Positions 43,534 through 55,754 of a stretch of DNA of 64,000 nucleotides are shown here, piece by piece. The notes under the pieces were generated by a model. The model was not told the DNA's origin, searched no databases, and saw only the letters and a list, made by a program, of their open reading frames with translations. The position numbers and the translations under genes are program-made. Source of the stretch: Marvania coccoides (lineage: Eukaryota > Chlorophyta > Trebouxiophyceae > Chlorellales > Chlorellaceae); assembly GCA_963854735.1 (NCBI GenBank), contig OY978097.1, forward strand, positions 2,418,001 to 2,482,000, written 5' to 3'. Every line of letters begins with the position of its first letter. Within the stretch, counting starts at the first letter, position 1.

Positions 43534-46500
43534 TCACGGCATCCCCGTGGCAACAAACGGCAAGGTAGCCAAATGCCGCTTGCTCTCCACCTGCAGCTGC
43601 TGCTGCTCCTCCGCCCTGCGCGCGTCCATGTATGCCTTGCGTGCCCTGCACAGCGCCAGCGGGAGGCACACGTAGAGCACCAGCGCACACGCGTTGGCGC
43701 CAATCGCCTCAATCCAAGCGTTGTAGTTGCTCGCCCTGTCCGGCAGCTCTCCCAGCGTCATGACGTAGCGCGACATCAACAGCACCGCCGCATGGTGCAC
43801 GTGTCCGCACACCACGTGCGTGATCACCGCCAGCAGCCCTGTCGCTGCCATCACGTTGTCAGCAATGGGGTTGCTTGCCAGTGCCTCCAGCGCCTGCGCC
43901 TGCAGCGAACTGACCCCGGATATGCGGCTGAGCGTGATGGACCCGAATCCTACCGCTGTGGAGCGCCCCACTGCCCAGGAGCGCTCGATTTCGACACCCC
44001 GTTCCGCCTGGCCCTCAACTGATAAAACCGAGACCAGAATTGACAACAGGCTGGCAACAATGGCCAGATCCTTGGGAAGCACAGCCCCCAGCACCAGGAT
44101 GTACAGCGACAGCAGCGTGGAGACCGTCAGGAGACTGGAGAGGGTGTTGGCAGCAGCAGAGGAAGCGGCGGAAACGGTCATGTGTTCAGGCTTCAACACG
44201 GGGGCGAAGGGGCACGAAGTGGACGCAGAGGGACCCTCGTCGCAGTCGCACTCATAGCCATCCACCACCTCTTTTATCGCCGCAGCAGGCGGGAACGTGT
44301 CGTTGAAGTGGCGCGGGCAAGGGGGCTGCAGCGCCTGGTCGCGAATCCTCTGCTCCTCCTTGTTCAGCGTGGCCAGGAAGCTCTCTGCCGCGGGCGCCCC
44401 GCGGTCAGTCAGCAGGCGCAGCATGCCGTTTTGGTGCAGGCCTACAGCTATTGACAGGGCGCTCTTGGCCTCCGACGACTCCGCCTTCCAGGCATCCAGA
44501 TGCCCCGGCGCGAGCGCCAGCAGCGCCTCCACCACCGGGCAGGGCTCCCGCAGCATGGCGCAGAGGTGGAAGGGGGTCAGAAAGCTGCTCTGGCTGGCTG
44601 AAGAAGCGGAGGTGGAATCAACAGCGCCAGGGCCGGCCATCACAGCCTCCAGCGGCAGCCCCCGGGCGGCCGCCCATGTGCCCACCTCCGTCACAAGGTC
44701 TGCGCTGCCCGACGCCACGGCGGCAGCCAAGAGGGACACCCCCTGGCCCAGCCCAGCAGAAATTCCCACCAGCGCCTCAACGGCAGACTCTCCCGCGTCC
44801 ACCAGCGGCAGCACCATCCGCAGCAGCGCCGGCCACCCCCGTAGCAGGCATGTGGCAGCCATTTCCTGGGCGGCCTGCCCCACGCGAGCCGCCGCATTGC
44901 CCGTCAGTTCCACAGCCAATTCCTGGTTGGCAGCCAGCCGCGCCAGCACCCCCAACGTCGCCAGAAAGGCAGGAGCGTTGGCCACCAGCGTGGGGTCGGT
45001 TTCCAGCGCGCGCACCTCCTCCACGGCGGCGGCATCGTCAAGAACAAGGAAGGTCGTTGGGGCGGTGACAAACACCCCACGCTGCGCCTCCATCGCATAC
45101 CCGCCCTGCGCCATGCTGGGCACGCGCAGCTGCACCCACCCGCCTACGCCCTCGCCGGCCTCCGTCACCAGCGCGGCCCCGCGTGCGACAACCTCCGTGG
45201 TGACGTTGGCACCGCCGGAGCAACAGTAAACTGTGTCGCGGGCGGGGTCCATACTGGGACTGAGCACCAGGATGGGACCGTCGTAGTCGGGGGTGGCCGC
45301 CAGGGGGCACACCACCAGCGTGCTGGGCAGAGGGTCGCTTCCAATGAGCCCCCTGTCCCCGCCCAAGTCCAGCAGCATTCGCACCTTGCCGTCCAGCACC
45401 ACGGCCGCTTTGGGCCCTCCCATGGCCTGCATCTGCAGCAGGACGCCCCCGGGAATGGCGCCGGCGCACGCCATCGAGGTGGACGACAGCGCTCGCATGG
45501 CCGCTGCCCTCACGTCTCCGCAGAGCCACTCCTTCTCCGCGCGGGTAATCAGCGCGGCAGCGGTGGTATGCACGCACCCGGGGCGCGTGGCAAGCTCGGA
45601 GTAGGTGGGGGTCTTCACCATCCACGAGCGCAGCTCCTCCAGCAGCCCCGGCGGCAGCTGCTGGGGCGTGGTTTTGAAGAATTTCATCGACAGCTGCACG
45701 ACGTCGTTCTCGGGGGGAGACCGCTGGGCGACGGGCTGGCTGAGCTGTGACAGCAGGCTCAGCAGGTGGCCCATGTCGCCCTGGCCCTGGCGCTGCTGCT
45801 GGCCGTTGGCAGCAGGACCAGTCTGCTGGTGCAGCTGCTTCTGCGCCCCGGGGTGAATGGCGGGGGGCAGCATGGAGGAATCTGGCGAGGACATGGGCTG
45901 TTGCTTGATCTGCAGCGAGGGGGGCAGCGACCTGGCTGCACCGGCAGCTCCATTGCCGTTGTTGCCACGCTGCCCTCCTCCTCCTCCCATCTGCTGCGAC
46001 AGCGTCGCCAGCATGTCGCTGAGACTGCCACCGGCTCCGCCGCCTCCTCCTTGCGGCCTTGAAGTCGCCTGCATGGGCGGCAGTGGCCCATGCTGCTGCT
46101 GCTGCAGCGGCGCAAACGCACTGCCAGTGGCACCGATGGCGGGGGGAGCGTTCGTCTCACCGTGTCCGCCCCTGCCTCCCCCAGCGCGCAGCAGCTGCTC
46201 CAGCGTGTTCATCATTATAGCAGAGCCGGGGCCGCCGTTTGCAGCCGGCTCAGGCCGCAGCGCTCGCGGGTGGGAGGGGTGCGACGCCAGCAGCGTCACG
46301 TGCTGCTGATGCATAGGCGGCATCCCATGGCCGTGGTGCTGCTGCTGTGAGTGCACAGGGTGCGACTGCAGAGACATCGGCGGCGGCCCTCCACCGCCCA
46401 TCCCCTGCATCTGGCTGAACTGCGACATGAGGTGGGGGTGCAGCCGCGCGTCAGGTCCCGCGTATTGGTGATGGTGCATGGGGGGCATGGGAGGCGGGGG

Positions 46501-47554
46501 TGCCCCCCACCCACTCCGCCCCTGCGACGGCATCGTCATGCTCTGCAGGCCGTGCGCCAGCGGCGCGCCCATCCCCTGCATGAGGTCGTAGTCCGACGTC
46601 AGCCTGTGCAGGATGTCGTTCACGGCGTAGCCGTGCCCGGCGGGGAGCACGCCGGCGGGGAAGCCGTTGGGGCTGCCGCTGCGCTGAAGTTTGTGCCCCG
46701 AGCGGGAGCGCCCGCCACTGCCCTCGCCGCCGCTGTCGCTGTCGGTCATGGTGCTGCCCTCCAGCTTGCGCCGCCGCTCGTTGTGCTTCTCGAGCTTCTT
46801 GCGGCAGGAGCGGCGGTCGCCGTCAAACTCGTCCAGCAGCTGGAAGCGGCCGCACTGCTGGCAGAACCGGATGCTCTGGCCCTCCACCACCATGCAGTTG
46901 AGCTCCAGGTGGTAGGGGCAGATCTGCAGTGCGCAAAAACAGTACGAAAATTGGGGTGAGAGGCAAAAACGAACAGTATGTGGTGGGTGTATTGGAAGGA
47001 AGCAGAGGGAGCAGCAACGGACGCCAGCCGGGCTACGAACGAGGAAGCGCTTACTTTGTATCTCTGCACAGGGAACGGGGCGACAGGGAGGAGTGAGAAA
47101 TCGCGAAAACGTACTAAAAAATAACGAAAGATGGTACCAGCATACAAAGCGTCGGTCGCTCACCTTGTAGTAGTCCCTGAGCTTGTGCAGCGACCTGTCG
47201 CAACCAGGAACTGAAAAAAAGAGCAAGTTAAGGTCAGGGCTCCAAACTGTTCCTGACATTACAATGTGCTTGCTTACCTTGGCACGCCACGCCCTTGCGA
47301 GGAGGGTCTTTGAAGAAGCTACGGCCTCTCCCGCGCTTGTATTGCGGCCCTGGCTGCACGGGCCGGCCGTCAGAGCCAAGATGATTGCCGTGCGGAATTT
47401 CCAAATACTTTTGGCCTTCAGGGTGCTGCTGCTGCTGCTGCTGCTGCTCCTCCATCGGCTCAAATGCAGCCGCATCTTTCAAATGCGGAGAGCTAGAGGG
47501 GACATCGACTGGCTCTGCCGGAGAGGCATCTAATTCTGGGGATAATCCCTCCAT
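43534..47554 (-). CDS. SBP-box transcription factor 2 (large, multi-TM C-terminus)
   Basis: Four exons on the minus strand: 47554-47278, 47210-47164, 47063-47055 (9 nt), 46923-43534; 1240 aa. The SBP domain is assembled as ACQ-VPGCDRSLHKLRDYYK-RYK-ICPYHLELNCM, then IRFCQQCGRFQLLDEFDGD and RRSCRKKLEKHNERRRK (NLS). As in its neighbour, the finger-2 His is Gln. Long Gln/Pro/Gly/His-rich low-complexity regions follow. Then come ankyrin-like blocks (LTPFHLCAMLREPCP; ALSIAVGLHQNGMLRLLTD) and a C-terminus with several hydrophobic segments (LLTVSTLLSLYILVLGAVL; VLYVCLPLALC). Size and layout resemble CRR1, but no Cys-rich copper-response tail is seen. The N-terminus has a short poly-Gln. Confidence 0.88.
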
Positions 47555-48458
47555 AATTACCGCGCGACCGTCCTCAACAAAAATGAAACCAGGGTTTTTT
47601 TGCAGTAATATGAAACGTATAATGATTTAGCAGTAAACCAACCAGGGCGTGAGTATAAAAAGAAAGGGCCCCCAAAAGGCCGAGCACAGAATTGCAGTGG
47701 GCTTGGAATGCATGAATTGCAGCCGTGCATGAAGGAATGGAGTCGATCAGTACGATTGGCGTACCCAAGTGCATGTAGAGCTTTCAAAAGCAATTGATCT
47801 CCCTTTCAAAAGGCGCTTTACAATATTTCCGCTCCTACCGGGTTCGCCGGCCACTGCCAAGAGCTATTTTCAATTGGCTAGGCCCAGCTATTTCTCGTTT
47901 AAACGCCAAGTTAGTTAGTGTCGGGCTACGCATCAAGAAGTGCAGCGCCCGTCTAAAGAGCTTGGCGCAGGGGGATGCACTGACCAAGCAAGGAACCTTT
48001 TCCTGCACGTATATTAATGTGTTGGCTAATTCTCGGCGCCGGCGCACCATCAACTATGACAATAATAATAGAAGTACCGTTTCATAATTGCTTCGAGGCC
48101 GAAACCAACAATGCTTCGACAACTGCTGTGTCCTCTGCCGCCACCCCTCCTTTGCGTTCTCTTTCAGAATCCAAAAGCCTCTAGGGAATGCTCAGAGTGA
48201 GCTCATTTGGGATTGTAACGCACCAAGTCACACAGAGGGTGACAAAAATCTCCAAACAGAATTTCAACAAAAGTTTGAATTTGCCGGGTGCTCTTGGACC
48301 GAAGCGTGAGCAACGACGACCTACCGAGGCGCAACTTGATAGATGCTCCGGCACGTCAATAAATTCTTGGTAAACTATAAAATATAAAACAGATCTTAGC
48401 GTGCGTTAAGCTTCGTTGCTTGCAATTTTGCTTTGCTCGCGGATCTCAAGATTTTGAA
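47555..48458. promoter_or_regulatory. Divergent intergenic region SBP2 / RING-CH
   Basis: 904 bp between divergent start codons, expected to hold both promoters. No gene, repeat or specific element recognised. Confidence 0.4.
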
Positions 48459-49309
48459 ATGTTGTTTGCTGGCGACAAAAGCTGTGCGGGCGATGGGACC
48501 ATCACGCTGAGGAACGCGCGCGCGGTGAGCAAGCAAGATGAGGACCAAGCAGTTTGGAGTGAGAGCATTTGCTGGATATGTCACGAAGGCCACTCCAACG
48601 AGGAGGGAGGAGCCCCACTCCTCCAGCCTTGCAAGTGCTCGATCATGGCGGCTCATCGCGCCTGCTTAGCGCGCTGGCAGCTCCAGCAAGCTGGAAAACC
48701 GTAAGAATTGCAATTGTTCAACCTCTTTGCGACTTTTTGCGGACTCCGGTCGAATTTGCTTCCAATCTCTTTGCTTTTCCATTTTATTCTAGTTTTTAAC
48801 AAGCGATTTATTCGCTGCAGAGAAGAGCGCTGCTGCAGGTTCTGCAATGCCGAGCTGCCGGACTGGCGTGAGGCGCACTCGCAGCTGCCGCAGGCGCCGC
48901 CGATCATGACGGTCGTCCACCTGGGCGTCACCCACCAGGTGCGAGTGGAGCCTGGGCCCGATGGCCGGCAGCGGTTCCAGTCTGAGATCCGGCGCATATT
49001 CAACCTGAATGACCGCGACGCAATCCAACTGACATTCGGGTGCCGCATTCCAGGGAGCAGTGAGTCAAAAACTCTTGTGATAAATTTCGAGATTTTCTTT
49101 AATTATGTGTTCATGCTTTTATTGAAGCTGTAGACCAAGAAATCCAGCTGGAGGGGTGGGAATCTTTTGATGCTGCGGTCTACTGCGCCGGCGTCTCTGC
49201 GGGCCAGCGGACCAGGGACTCGGAGGGCCACAAGCCACCATCGGTAGAGCGCCGCAGCTCGGGTGGGGTCCTCCGCAGGCTGTTTTCACGCAACACCTCC
49301 CAGCACTAG
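48459..49309 (+). CDS. RING-CH (MARCH-type) E3 ubiquitin ligase
   Basis: Three exons: 48459-48700, 48821-49059, 49128-49309; 220 aa. The RING-CH (C4HC3) domain at residues ~35-92 has ICWICHEGHSNEEGG, LLQPCKCSIMAAHRACLARW and, across intron 1, RCCRFCNAELPDW, with all eight ligand positions present. This variant RING recruits E2 enzymes. Most animal MARCH proteins are membrane-bound, but no transmembrane helix is visible here, so this one is probably soluble. The rest (VVHLGVTHQVRVEPGPDGRQ) is not a domain I recognise. The C-terminus is Ser/Arg-rich. Confidence 0.8.
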
Positions 49310-49786
49310 GCGGCAAGGAGCGGGTTTTAGGGGGGGGCTGTGCTAATTATAGATTCCATCTTGGTATTTTTCATACGCCCAGTGTACTCCGATGATAATT
49401 ACGCTCGTATTGTTTTAGAAAAACAACGAGACCCACAGGGGGAGGATGCCAGCAGTAGGTGCATGTCCCTCCTTGGCTGGTTGATTTGATAACATATAGT
49501 TAGTTACGTTATAAAATTTATCCCGGTATTCCTTACTCATCTTCTTATTATTCTCAACCCAAAGTCACTAAAACAGATTTTGAATATTTATTTATTTATT
49601 CTTAGACGTCCTCCATGCCTGCCAGTCTTTCCCATTTTTATTCTTCTTCTTCATTCCATGTATGTATACATACATACATTACAGGTTTTAAAGTCCACAC
49701 AAAAATGCAACTAAGGCCCCGTAGCAGACTGACACGCTAGTGACAGCCGCGCACGTAGGAATAAGAATGAAAAAGCAAGAACACGA
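49310..49786. other. Spacer left of the transposon
   Basis: AT-rich, with a TA/CA-rich simple stretch (49658-49682). A 9-mer AGGCCCCGT at 49714-49722 recurs just outside the right end of the transposon (55298-55306). No gene seen. Confidence 0.5.
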
Positions 49787-49808
49787 TCACTGGGCCACCA
49801 CTTTTAAG
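49787..49808 (+). repeat. Left terminal inverted repeat
   Basis: Starts TCACTGGGCC and ends CACTTTTAAG; exact reverse complement of 55275-55296 over 22 bases. Similarity ends on both sides. Confidence 0.85.
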
Positions 49809-49925
49809 GGCACTCCGCGCTTTTCCGAGCGTTTCGGCACGTTTCGCCGCATTTAATCAATGCATGGGATCATTAATGTTAGCTTTATGCTTCAGGCAAC
49901 TTGAATTGCAGTCTAAACTTTAAAT

Positions 49926-51403
49926 ATGGCATCGATGTCCATCGACCCGATCCAGATGCGGCAAATGGAGGCCATGGGGACACGTGATTATTGTTCAGTG
50001 AAGGCCAAGGAATTATTTAAGATGGAGCAGGGCTCAGAACAGTGGCATGATGAGCGGCAACTGCGAGTTACAGCCAGCAGAATTGCGGTCATCGCTGGGC
50101 TCGTTTCACACCCCTCTATCGAGGATGTTCTTCACGAAATATTTAACCCGCCTAAGGTTACCACGCACATGCAGCGGGGGATCGATCTGCAGCGCAGCAT
50201 CGCTGACAATTACATCCTTGATCTTCAGGTAAGCTACTTACCTCCGTTTCTGAAGGCGATTTCGCCCCATTTCACCTGGTTCTATCATCTAAATCGCAGA
50301 AGAGAAAGGGGGGCGTCTACAAGCTTCACGAAGTTGGCCTTCTCCTGCATCCAGACTACCCGCACTTAAGCGCATCGATGGACTACTGGGTGGTGAACGA
50401 AGCCAGGTCTGAGGCCTTCATTTTAGAGGTTAAGGCCCCCTCAAGGGAACCTGATGACCTCCCCAGGGCAGCAGAGTGTCAGGTCGTCATGCAGCTCGCG
50501 ATTGCCGTGAGCTCTGAGCTCGTGGATTGGCTTGGCAGCCCTCCAAAAGCGGTGGTCGTGGCAGGCGTGGGCGACAATTTGGCGTTTTGGGACGTGCCTT
50601 GGGATGACCAATCGCAGGCTCTGTGGTTCGAACATCTGCTCCCGGCCGCCCACATATTTTATTTAGAAGGAGTGCTGCCCAAACTGTTGGAAAATGAGGA
50701 GCGTCGAGCTTGCGCGGTGGCGGCGGCAGCCCAACGAGCCCGTACGCCTCCACCTGAGCGTTGCCTCCCCCTTCCCGATGACTCTATTACGTTGATTACC
50801 CCGACTATGGCTGTAGGGAAGGTTGTGCAGCGCCTCAATTCAAATGACCAAGCGGTGATTGTGGGGGTCGAAAGGAAAGGCATTGTGTTGGACAACAACA
50901 AGGTGGTGGACAACAAGAAGCGTAAGCGGCCCGCCAACCCCGAGAACTACGTGGTGCTGCCTCTCTCAGCCCATCTCTGCGTGGCCCCGTCCGCAACCGG
51001 GCAGCGGGTGATGGTGGTCGGCGGTCGTTACATCCGAAATCCGCCGCTGGAGGGCTTCGTGGAGAGCTGGGCCGCGCAATACTCTCAAATAAAGCTGGAT
51101 GTGGGTGATGTGGTGGTTTCCGTGAAGAATTCGTACCTTCATGTCAACGAAAAAGGAGCGCAGCCGTTAAAACGCACCATCGAGCCGGTGCAGGATGTTG
51201 AATGTATAAAAATTCCCGCTGATAAATATGACGATTTTCTTTCGCAGCTGCTTGATGGCGGTCAGTTGGATCTTGTCCTGAAGGAGCCCCACTCACGAGC
51301 ATCGAAGATTTCTCAACTTGAAAAATTTGTTTCAATGGCGGCAGAGCAAGAAAAAATTACGGAAGACGAGGCTGCTCAAGCTTTGTGTAACCTTGAATTG
51401 TAA
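49926..51403 (+). CDS. YqaJ-family viral-recombinase-type nuclease (PD-(D/E)XK)
   Basis: Two exons: 49926-50228 and 50300-51403; 468 aa. The YqaJ/lambda-exonuclease pattern is clear: GSEQWHDERQLRVTASRIAV, HMQRGIDLQRSIADNY, LLLHPDYPHLSASMDYW (catalytic Asp), AFILEVKAPS (E-x-K) and ECQVVMQLAIA (Gln). These proteins are 5'-3' DNA exonucleases of phage and viral recombination systems. A KKRKRP cluster (~residue 295) is a likely nuclear localisation signal. The C-terminal 150 residues are not recognised. The gene lies inside the transposon, convergent with its transposase 627 bp away. TGTAA overlaps its stop codon. The intact frame and motifs suggest function. Confidence 0.85.
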
Positions 51404-52030
51404 ATGCGCCTCCCTGGAGATTTTTAATACGTATAATTTGAACACTATAATTTGAACTCTTTGCCGTTGTCCACCGGCACGTTGACACAATTTTTACTGC
51501 CAGACACTTGGCGCACCTCCTCGTGCGTGTAGATTCTTTATTTAAATTTTTATACTCCATTCTGTATGGGTTTAAGCTCTAAATTGGAGCAAAGTACAGC
51601 GATTCTTGGCCTTCGTACTCTCATCAGTTGAACATTTTTGGGGGTGCGAAACAGTATTATGACACCCTTTGCGCTGGACACAATTTTTTTTAGTATTATA
51701 TTTGATAGCTCCGCAGGCTGTTGTAACTTGGCGCGATTGTTTTTGGAGTTTTCACATGCTTGTTGAGATCGGCAGTTCACACACTTTCAGCGTACAATTG
51801 CGAGCCGCCAACACTACGCCCACCGCTTCTTATTAATAAACATTATTTATAATGATTTCTTGAAGCTCGATTAAGGTCCCATTGGCACGCCTCGTGGAAT
51901 TGTATGCACTCCTCCAATTTTATTGCACATACAGTTTACATCATTTTCCGGAGAGGAAACACAGTGAATTCAATTCCAAAAATTCAAAAATAAATAAATA
52001 AAGCTATCAATGAGTAAAAAGTAGTGTAAT
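51404..52030. other. Convergent spacer inside the transposon
   Basis: 627 bp, AT-rich, between the stop codons of the nuclease and transposase genes; likely 3' UTRs of both. No coding block seen. Confidence 0.5.
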
Positions 52031-54841
52031 TTAAAAATTATCGTCTCCCTCCGCCGCCTTGCCGCCTGCCGGAGACAAGTAGCCCCGCCTCTCGCACCCA
52101 CGCGCGCCGGTTTTCGGCCTCCCAGCAGATTTCACGTGCGAGAACTCTGCTGTGACCTCCTCCTCTTCGCCGCGGCCTCCTCCGGCTGTGAAGTGGCCCT
52201 TGCTGCGCCCGCTCGTCCTCCCGGCGAAAAGCGGCCTCTCCACGCGGCGCCCCGCAGCCCGCGTCTGCTGCTTGCCCACCTGCACTTGTGTGGCCGCAAA
52301 CTTCTGCTCCGCCTCTTTTATTTGCTGGAATGTGGCCTTCAGCGCCGGCAGGTGCGCTGCGGCAACATCCTCTGAAATGGAGGGGAGGGCAGCCATTATG
52401 CCTTGCACGGTGCGCTTTACCTCCATCCTCATTGGTCCCAGCTTCATCCTAGGCTGCGCCGTCTTCATCGCGGTCGTGAGCGCATCCAACTCTTTTTTCG
52501 CAGCGCCAAGAGAGATCAGCGGCTCCTTCTCCGGAGATGGGCCCATGCGAGCAGGCCGCGCAACCTCCACGATGTCAGGGGGCTCCTCTAGGTGCAGGAT
52601 AGCCCCAACTTCCGGCAGGGAGGCGCCAGCGAGGAGGTGGGGGCACACGCGGGCGACATCGTAGACGGGGCAGCTGCAAATGCCCTCCAACGCGCTGATG
52701 ACAGCGCTGCCGTTGCCGGCGAGGTTGGGGGACAAGAAAAGCTTTTCACCCTCTTGGCTGCCGGGGAGATTGGTGAACTTCGCAGCGCCTGGATGAAAAA
52801 ATGAAGTTTGAATTTGAAGCGATATTACTTGTCTTATTTGAATTCTTGATTATATATTCGTGAATGAAGGCAAAGAACCAGAAGAATTTATACAATTTTA
52901 ACCTTGGAGAGAGCATTGTAGAGAATGAATGCCTTTTCTCACCAGATTTGTGCTTCTCAGCGCAAGCAGCTGCTATGGACTTCAGCAAATCTGAGGTGTA
53001 GGGGAACTTGTTGGCGGCGGCATGGAGGTGGTGGCACACACCGTCAGCACCGCAGTCACACGACAAGTCGCCGATAACCGTGTCATGACTCTTAAAAGGG
53101 CACACCTTGTTGGCGCTGCGAACGCGGCACCGCCCTACCCCCGCATCCACCCGAGTCACCCCGTTCGGCAGCTTTTCTACCCGCTCCACCCGCTTCGCAT
53201 ACGATTCGTCGGCCGCCTCTGCCCCAGTGCGCACCATGCCGGAGTGTTTGCGTAAGCGGTCGGCCAAGTAGTGTTGCATTGCCTTGAGAAGGAGCCGCAC
53301 CACGTCGTCTACGCGCTTCCCCACCTTCTTTCCGCTGAAATGGTACTTGATCTTGTACTGCGCGGACTCAGCGAGGTTGTTGGTGTTGCTCTGGAGGTCG
53401 TCCAGCCCACGGCGGCCGAACATTGCCCAGCGCACAGCACACGACTCCCACTCCGCCGCGTAGTAGCTGACCAAGGCTGGATAATTGCCAAGATCCCCGT
53501 CATCGGTCAAGCGCCGCTTGAAAGCCTCAGAGTTGGCCTTGAACTCCGCCTCTGAGGTGGACCGCATGACGCCCCGCAGCGCTGCGTAGATATTGAGCCG
53601 CAGGCCTTTCTTCTCCACGCCCTGCACGCCACTTTTGTGAGACTTGCAGAAGCGCTCGATGGCCTGCATGGCGTGGAAGATGCAGAGCAGGAACTTGATG
53701 TCCAGCGCCTGACACGCCGCCATCTCTGCAGGAGACTTGTCGATCATGATGGAGTCGAACTTGAAGTCCGCCGCCTGTAACGATAGATTGGACAATATTA
53801 TGAATAAATTTCACAGTGATTAACTCAAAATAGTGAGGAAATTTGAAATAAATCAAAGGTATTGACGCTCGGTGATTTATAAATTGAACTGTCAAATTTA
53901 CCTCAGCCACAATCTTCAAGAACTCCTCGTACGTAGCGGCCTCCTCGCTGTCCGCTATGCAGAACGCCACCGGCACGGCGTTGGTGAACTCGTCCCGGAC
54001 GACGATGGAGATGAGGGGGTAGCCGTACTTGATCATCCCATAGGTGGCGTCCATGAAGACGAGGCGGCTCCCAAAGGTCTTCAGCATGCGGGTGAGGAAG
54101 GGGGTGGACAGGACCAGCATGAAGTGCTGCGTGATTTTCCCGTCGTCCATCACTTGGGGGCGGTACTTGAGCACGACGCCAGGGCTGCCGTGCTTCAGGC
54201 CGTCTACGAGATGCTGCAGGCTGAGGCTGTCGTTTCTGTTGGGGCGGAGCTCGTGCTGCACAGTTTTCTGGAGGTTTTGAAGCTCCCGCAGCGTGGGCAG
54301 CTGTCTCGAGTTGAAGTTGCCGTCGGAGCCGATGCCGAAGTTGAACTTCTCCTCCAGCACCTGCAGCACCCTGAATGGGGTCATGCCGTACTTCAGCAGC
54401 TGCAGAAGGTATAGAAAAATAGTTATATATGGCGCTGACAAATTTCAAATTTCAAATATCCGGTACCGGTAGCGCCTCCTCTTTCACGCGAGGGAGGATA
54501 TTGCGGAGCCGTTGATCTAGCCCAGCTCCAGGCACGTGCCCAACGTGCCCATGCCTGTCGAAGATGTAGAGCTCGCCGGGGCGGTCCGCCCAACCCACCA
54601 CCACGAGTTCCCAGGGGCAGCCGACCTTGGCGGTCGCTTTCTGTTCGCTCTCAGGACAACGACTCTCAGTTTCCTTCTTCCCAAACTTGCAGCCGTGGAC
54701 GATGTGGACCATTTTTTCCCCCCATGCACTTTTGGGGAGGTTACCGTACGGATAAGGCATATTTCTGCGCTCGTGGATCTCCCAGTCAGGATTCTGACTG
54801 GCCAGGTCGCGTAAACCATGCGCACGGCCCACGAAGGAGTC
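52031..54841 (-). CDS. MULE-type DDE transposase with two SWIM zinc fingers
   Basis: Four exons on the minus strand: 54841-54467, 54399-53902, 53774-52943, 52788-52031; 820 aa, plus an uncertain 5' exon (about 55065-54964). Exon 2-type N-terminal sequence has a GCM/WRKY-like Cys/His block (IVHGCKFGKKE...RCP...GCPWELVVVG...FDRHGHVGHV), as in MULE/FAR1 proteins. The DDE catalytic residues appear in RLVFMDATYGMIKYGYPL, FDSIMIDKSPAE and NTNNLAESAQYK. SWIM finger 1 is LSCDCGADGVCHHLHAA; a second, ICSCPVYDVARVCPHLLAG, follows in the last exon. The C-terminal tail is Arg/Gly-rich with an AT-hook-like AGRPKTGARG. Codon use matches the host. Confidence 0.85.
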
Positions 54842-55274
54842 CTGCGCAGTGCCGAAAATCAGATCAAATGTTGAAAAGAGTCACAAAATTGAGACAACAA
54901 TTGACACATTGCAATAAAATATAACTCGCAGTACATCACATATTGTATAATTTGAAACTTACAGTGTTCCCTGGCTGGCTGTTGGTAGGACAGGTTTCCA
55001 TCCTCGAGAGGGAAATGCTTCAACAATGGCCGAAAAAGTGGCTCACGCGTGCTGATTATATCCACGGGTGGCATAAACAATCGGAATTACGCGCCAGAGA
55101 ATGGTGTGGCAGGCTGAACCAAATAGGGTGGGTGTTCTTTGCAAGTTGATCACCTCTTTTTCCCAAAATGTGCGAAATTCAGAGGCTGCTTGCCTTGCAG
55201 AGGTTCAATAACATTATACGAATTGTTTAAGACGTGCGACGTCTTCTAAAACACGGTGTGGAGGCCAGAGCTTT
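54842..55274. other. Right-hand transposon interior / transposase 5' region
   Basis: Contains a minus-strand exon-like block starting MPPVDIISTREPLFRPLLKH and ending before a GTAAGT donor (~54963). Joining that donor to the 54841 acceptor makes an in-frame TGA, so the 5' end of the transposase gene is unsettled. The rest is probably promoter. Confidence 0.4.
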
Positions 55275-55296
55275 CTTAAAAGTGGTGGCCCAGTGA
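55275..55296 (-). repeat. Right terminal inverted repeat
   Basis: Starts CTTAAAAGTG and ends GGCCCAGTGA; exact inverted match to 49787-49808. Confidence 0.85.
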
Positions 55297-55754
55297 GAGG
55301 CCCCGTGCAATGAAAAAAGTACGTCATTAAAAACATTTTGCTTTCCTTACAGGGTATACAGGGAGGGGTTTACAGGGTTGCAAATCGTTATTGATCCCTA
55401 CAGCGGGCGCTCCCGAAGAGGCCCTCAAGTTGCTGTGTCAACACCCAAAAAAGAAGAAGAAGAAATATTGGACAGGATGGGAAAATATCAGTCTGGGACT
55501 GACAAGCTCAAAAGCGGCTGGCATGTGCTTGTGGCCCCAGGTTATTCCATTTTCTGGCTAATTTCGGTATGGCTTGCTCAGACAGATGTCTAGCGTTTAA
55601 GACCTCGGCGCGCGCGGGTCGCGGGCCATGGAGTTACCTGCCACGTAGGACGTCGATTGATCTCAAATTCTCTTCACTCGGTATCGGAAATCGCAAAACC
55701 TAATCGTATTAACATCCAATTACCAGGACAGAGATTTGAAAGCTTCAGCGTGAA
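55297..55754. other. Spacer right of the transposon
   Basis: 458 bp. Begins with GAGGCCCCGT (see the 9-mer at 49714). No gene seen. Confidence 0.4.

Follow-up and report, generated by a model that had tools for sequence, protein, structure and literature searches.

A two-gene MULE transposon of Marvania coccoides with a convergent gene for a predicted YqaJ/RecE-type nuclease

MuDR and other two-gene Mutator-like elements (MULEs) encode a DDE transposase with a MULE domain, SWIM motifs and a C/DxxH motif, generate 9-bp target duplications and have a second gene convergent with the first, which in MuDR is mudrB. Outside the MULEs, nucleases of the lambda-exonuclease type have been described as partners of DDE transposases. 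According to PMC4482050 and PMC9179366, ISL2EU elements of the PHIS/Harbinger-like superfamily encode a DDE transposase together with a YqaJ exonuclease protein, and according to PMC9587614, KolobokE encodes a PD-(D/E)xK nuclease resembling lambda exonuclease, while the transposases of Kolobok and MuDR both contain C/DxxH. Here we analyse a stretch of 64,000 nucleotides from the green alga Marvania coccoides (assembly GCA_963854735.1, contig OY978097.1, positions 2,418,001 to 2,482,000 of the forward strand; hereafter the window), in which we find an element that shares all of these features with the two-gene MULEs, but whose second gene is that of a YqaJ nuclease and whose short terminal repeats, of 34 bp, match each other imperfectly. 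The likeness to mudrB that a preliminary description of this DNA had drawn holds in both the position and the convergent orientation of the gene.

By comparing the flanks of all five copies of the element (see below), its boundaries were placed at 49775 and 55308 of the window, a length of 5534 bp. The preliminary description had taken exact 22-bp inverted repeats as the limits of the element. These repeats are present, at 49787-49808 and 55275-55296, and are a real inner core, but the true ends lie 12 bp further out on each side, so that the terminal inverted repeats are 34 bp long, with an exact inner 22 bp and an imperfect outer 12 bp. The sequence common to the copies starts with GCAAGAACACGA at 49775 and finishes with GAGGCCCCGTGC at 55308, and in the window AATGAAAAA abuts both ends. 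The earlier reading of an intact YqaJ gene on the forward strand and an intact MULE transposase gene on the reverse strand, tail to tail, also stands, except that both gene models need introns; both were built from splice consensus alone. The stop codons of the two genes face one another with 627 bp between them. The features are as follows.

49766..49774, no strand: left target-site duplication AATGAAAAA, 9 bp, identical to 55309-55317
49775..49808, plus strand: left 34-bp terminal inverted repeat, imperfect outside its exact inner 22 bp
49926..50228, plus strand: YqaJ nuclease exon 1, followed by a GT-AG intron (50229-50299)
50300..51403, plus strand: YqaJ nuclease exon 2, with D129, E144, K146, Q162 and the stop codon; the spliced protein matches PHROG_434
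52031..52788, minus strand: MULE transposase exon 5, with the second SWIM-like motif, the C-terminus and the stop codon; P0002 is 72% identical
52943..53774, minus strand: MULE transposase exon 4, with the second D, CIFH, the catalytic E by motif and the first SWIM motif; P0003 is 80% identical
53902..54399, minus strand: MULE transposase exon 3, with the first catalytic D by motif
54467..54841, minus strand: MULE transposase exon 2, encoding an N-terminal region in which Cys and His occur in pairs; no Pfam match
54963..55001, minus strand: MULE transposase exon 1, with the start codon, inferred from splice consensus
55275..55308, minus strand: right 34-bp terminal inverted repeat, imperfect outside its exact inner 22 bp
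55309..55317, no strand: right target-site duplication AATGAAAAA, 9 bp

The two exons of the nuclease gene encode 468 residues, and to judge by its sequence the product is a predicted YqaJ/RecE-type 5'-to-3' nuclease. It matches the Pfam family YqaJ (PF09588) with E=1.9e-9 over profile positions 1-147 of 150 (38.4 bits against a cut-off of 22), and the spliced protein matches the RecE-like exonuclease family PHROG_434 with E=2.2e-19 over residues 19-205. The catalytic D and ExK of the YqaJ family are present as D129 and E144-x-K146; together with Q162 they align with the other YqaJ gene of the host and with a relative from elsewhere, P0001. The host gene (L001) in turn aligns across the same motifs with the solved exonuclease 3syy (E=5.3e-8). 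The nuclease of the element itself gave no sequence relative in a search of solved structures, where five chance-level matches were returned (best E=0.27), and an AlphaFold model from exon 2 and one relative had a mean predicted local distance difference test score (pLDDT) of 30.7. The C-terminal part of the protein, about 260 residues, matched no Pfam family; from its sequence we entertained, tentatively, a KOW- or SH3-like fold.

The transposase gene is intact, with five exons running from 55001 to 52031. Four splice combinations gave open frames (827, 830 twice and 833 aa), of which the product of 833 aa was adopted. It matches the Pfam family MULE (PF10551) with E=8.6e-10 (39.4 bits against a cut-off of 27.6). 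By motif, the DDE residues are D255 in MDATYG, D316 in MIDKS and E440 in NNLAES, and CIFH at residue 335 corresponds to the C/DxxH between the second D and the E, which PMC9587614 describes as a rule for such transposases. In addition, two SWIM-like motifs of the form CxC...CxH are located at residues 543 and 619.

The host genome (G000; 22,462,713 bases in 15 contigs) was searched with the 5510-bp stretch between the outer limits of the exact repeats. It contains five full-length copies, at C1:143302, C1:2467787 (the copy in the window), C2:2333529, C4:2123890 and C8:1215114, each with the convergent pair of genes between matching repeats and with both genes unbroken. Four of them are identical across 5534 bp. 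The C8 copy differs by three substitutions, each of which alters an amino acid: V186A affects the nuclease, whereas E55K and I571T affect the transposase. Both of its frames are open. Target duplications of 9 bp, within the 8-11 bp that characterize MULEs, flank four of the five copies: TTTCTAAAA, TTATAGTAT, AATGAAAAA in the window, and TTATTATTA, the last being ambiguous in that it sits within a TTA repeat where other lengths also fit. Unlike these four, the C8 copy (L006, C8:1213614-1222123) showed no target duplication when its flanks were inspected; it is at once the sole copy without a duplication and the sole copy with substitutions. Five copies of the two-gene form, four of them identical and four with duplications, point to recent multiplication.

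With up to three mismatches, the 22-mer was found at 12 sites of the genome and the terminal repeat at 15, against none for the reversed control of either; since the controls gave no site and the element is present in full at five loci, the repeats are not a product of chance. Ten of the 15 terminal-repeat sites pair into the five elements, and five are single (C3:929329, C6:491116, C8:868278, C3:2205564 and C4:289845). The one at C3:2205564-2205597 is a lone terminal-repeat-like site with two mismatches.

The view that the nuclease is an accessory gene encoded by the transposon, which the preliminary description had proposed, gains support from this genome-wide comparison. No full-length copy with the repeats and without YqaJ was found. 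The nuclease protein gave 18 matches, which are divided among the five copies, a deletion relic on C4 and two relics belonging to an older subfamily, and no standalone YqaJ gene of the element type was found in the host genome. Similarly, a search for the MULE domain, in which six candidates were scored, gave five matches, which are the five copies. The C4 relic (L007/L008, 287.5-289.9 kb; 90-94% DNA identity) retains remnants of both genes and has large internal deletions. The other two relics are pieces with nuclease matches, one on C3 at 928.8-929.4 kb (76-77% DNA identity) and one on C13 at 624.0 kb (78%). What is left of the C3 relic is a terminal repeat, the noncoding DNA 5' of the gene, nuclease exon 1 and the first part of exon 2; the 5.0 kb past its end gave chance-level matches alone (best E=0.11). 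Its end at C3:929329 has variant bases in common with the ends on C6 and at C8:868278, and from their sequences these three look like an older subfamily. Among them the nuclease is visible at C3 alone, the C8 match stopping at the gene start and the C6 match being shorter.

Relatives elsewhere were sought by searches in which a candidate is scored only if it is among those with the most words in common with the query, for which absence is weak evidence; within that scope, the nuclease query gave one relative among 7995 scored candidates, the full-length transposase query none among 7993, its 414-aa C-terminal piece two among 7993, and the searches of viral_contigs and genome_contigs none. The relative of the nuclease, P0001, is 71% identical in the aligned part and has an open frame of 356 aa with D129, E144, K146 and Q162 on a 3584-bp contig. 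P0002, related to transposase exon 5 (72% identical), is present on 7 contigs, the longest of length 6049, and P0003, related to exon 4 (80% identical), lies on a contig of length 1280; in its first SWIM motif a Tyr replaces one of the Cys residues. The three, from records labelled ena or lgn, could not be placed on a common contig. Their similar divergence suggests that related two-gene elements are present in other genomes. Because the C3 relic joins the same end to the same gene, and because relatives of both proteins occur elsewhere, it is likely that the nuclease belongs to the transposon as a stable component.

Apart from the element, a single gene with a YqaJ domain was found in the host, L001 at C4:157110 (region C4:155610-159044). 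It has an open frame of 576-587 aa and is distant from the nuclease of the element (40% identity over 50 aa, E=0.008), which makes a recent origin of the latter from a host gene unlikely. The genome search with the Pfam profile YqaJ that bears on this point missed the intron-split nuclease of the element itself, and other split YqaJ genes could escape it likewise. L001 is of host type, a relative of phage-type exonucleases.

Compared with the systems described so far, the combination is distinct. Membership of ISL2EU, which has a THAP/HTH transposase, AT dinucleotide target duplications and animal hosts, is contradicted by the 9-bp duplications, the MULE domain and the lack of any THAP match up to E=1. 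KolobokE shares with our element the union of a DDE transposon with a PD-(D/E)xK nuclease resembling lambda exonuclease, but there the nuclease lies downstream of the transposase domain and Kolobok makes TTAA duplications, whereas here the duplications are 9 bp and the nuclease occupies a separate convergent gene. Nor is the element a Pack-MULE, the transposase frame being unbroken in every full-length copy. Phage RecE/lambda exonuclease modules share the nuclease family (PHROG_434 RecE-like), but the element has two long genes only, we recognised no gene for an annealing protein among its sequences, and its nuclease is joined to a DDE transposon. Among the extra open reading frames (ORFs) in the table of MULE groups in PMC6446971, some of which are unidentified there, no nuclease is named and no green-algal host is listed, and the word nuclease was absent from the main text of that paper in a term search. 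A term search of the text of PMC13359780, a 2026 survey of arthropod MULEs, likewise found no mention of a nuclease, an exonuclease or a second ORF. In the clam data presented in PMC7826175, MULE and YqaJ domains are both among the expanded families. The preliminary description knew of no MULE with a YqaJ partner, and among the open-licence papers listed by our searches we likewise found no lambda-exonuclease-like partner of a MULE, although a Repbase entry is possible. Such partners are already published for ISL2EU and KolobokE.

The element is a complete two-gene MULE. As for the role of its nuclease, the preliminary description suggested that it perhaps processes the ends of excision or insertion; we see about an even chance that, once the element has been excised, the nuclease resects the donor break and thereby favours refilling of the gap from a sister copy. 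By analogy with other MULEs, the transposase would excise the element and leave a broken donor site. The nuclease would then trim the 5' strands of the donor break, and host recombination proteins would restore the element with the sister chromatid or the homologue as template, by which a cut-and-paste element would gain copies. Tethering of the nuclease to the transposase or to DNA may be the task of its C-terminal part. The active MULE Muta1 is reported to be excised by its own transposase, its excision sites being repaired precisely or with footprints, and for P elements the gain of copies has been attributed to gap repair. In the C4 relic, two internal deletion junctions show microhomology of 2 bp (GC) and 3 bp (GAG). 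When gap repair is interrupted, internal deletions with microhomology are among the expected products, and the C4 junctions fit this circumstantially. Moreover, the lambda-exonuclease-like partners in two other DDE superfamilies suggest, by analogy, a general use at transposition breaks. A bolder extension, which we offer tentatively and hold to be rather doubtful, is that a third DDE superfamily has, independently of the other two, taken up an enzyme of the lambda-exonuclease type as a copy-back factor, making a cut-and-paste transposon effectively replicative.

Several results weigh against the proposal of donor-break resection. Microhomology at internal deletions is equally a product of end joining. 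A motif-I Glu (GxxxE) is usual in the YqaJ/lambda-exonuclease family, though not strictly defining; the element and the C4 relic have Gln89 at this position, and P0001 lacks that part. For the older subfamily, the genome search found no transposase remnant. Purifying selection on the nuclease at the DNA level was tested on the relics and was not shown: against the C4 relic, the ratio of amino-acid-changing to silent substitution rates (dN/dS) was 2.35 for the nuclease half (42.5 changing and 5.5 silent, 253 codons), and for the nuclease against the C13 and C3 relics it was 0.84 (77 codons) and 0.72 (109 codons). In the literature, the role of the ISL2EU-type extra ORFs is stated as unknown in PMC4482050 and PMC9179366, and most MULE groups in the table of PMC6446971 have a single ORF, so that MULEs can do without such a nuclease gene.

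In the comparison with the C4 relic, the nuclease tail (70 codons) and transposase exon 5 (159 codons) gave dN/dS values of 0.40 and 0.38. No stops occur in the compared relic codons, yet the relic frames are shifted inside the gene, with matches in several frames. Any one of three causes would account for the dN/dS figures: decay of the relics, chance or diversifying selection. Between the element and the C4 relic, 46 of the 58 differences in the nuclease gene fall at codon positions 1 and 2, an excess at these positions.

The best placed of the other explanations, which we nevertheless think unlikely, is that the nuclease acts in the manner of MURB on the excised element or the target, where it would prepare or protect ends for reinsertion. 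The gene occupies the convergent second-gene position of mudrB, which is reported to be necessary for new insertions in maize, and the uncharacterised C-terminal part joined to the nuclease half could bind DNA or transposase; on the other hand, a processive 5' exonuclease would be more apt to damage transposon ends than to prepare them, and Muta1 and Os3378, described as one-gene MULEs, are reported to transpose in yeast. We see a slim chance that the nuclease aids the survival of the element, not its movement, by destroying competing DNA, such as other mobile elements or viruses, or by countering host silencing: that substitutions in the nuclease half relative to the C4 relic are in excess amino-acid-changing could reflect an arms race, and an anti-silencing role has been reported for vanC, another second gene of a MULE, but the same excess can be explained by relic decay plus chance. 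Slimmer still is the chance that the YqaJ gene is passenger cargo captured in Pack-MULE style and without a role in transposition, for although host-gene capture is reported to be frequent among MULEs and purifying selection was not demonstrated, no full copy free of YqaJ was found among the host's five, the older relic has the same end beside the same gene, the only other host YqaJ gene found has diverged too far for a recent donor, and the 71% identical relative keeps all four motif residues in an open frame.

The insertion sites of several copies could be described. The C2 copy (L003, C2:2332029-2340538) is flanked by two parts of a type I polyketide synthase gene, with KR and carrier-protein domains on one side and ketosynthase and dehydratase domains on the other, and apparently lies in an intron of that gene. 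By eye, the copies in regions L002 and L005 are in introns of host genes with the candidate names multicopper-oxidase-like and expansin-like; Pfam matched none of the four flanking pieces. In the window, a gene for a RING-variant domain protein (48420-48704, plus strand) is located to the left of the insertion, and a large SBP-box gene (Pfam SBP, E=3.1e-21), of a kind that points to the green lineage, occupies 43534-47475 on the minus strand.

The element bears on two general questions, the gain of copies by cut-and-paste transposons and the function of second genes in MULEs. A seemingly recently active element with a resection-type nuclease of its own would offer a direct test of how the donor site is repaired, by end joining or by gap filling, and the presence of the same type of enzyme in ISL2EU, in KolobokE and now in a MULE points to a common need at transposition breaks.

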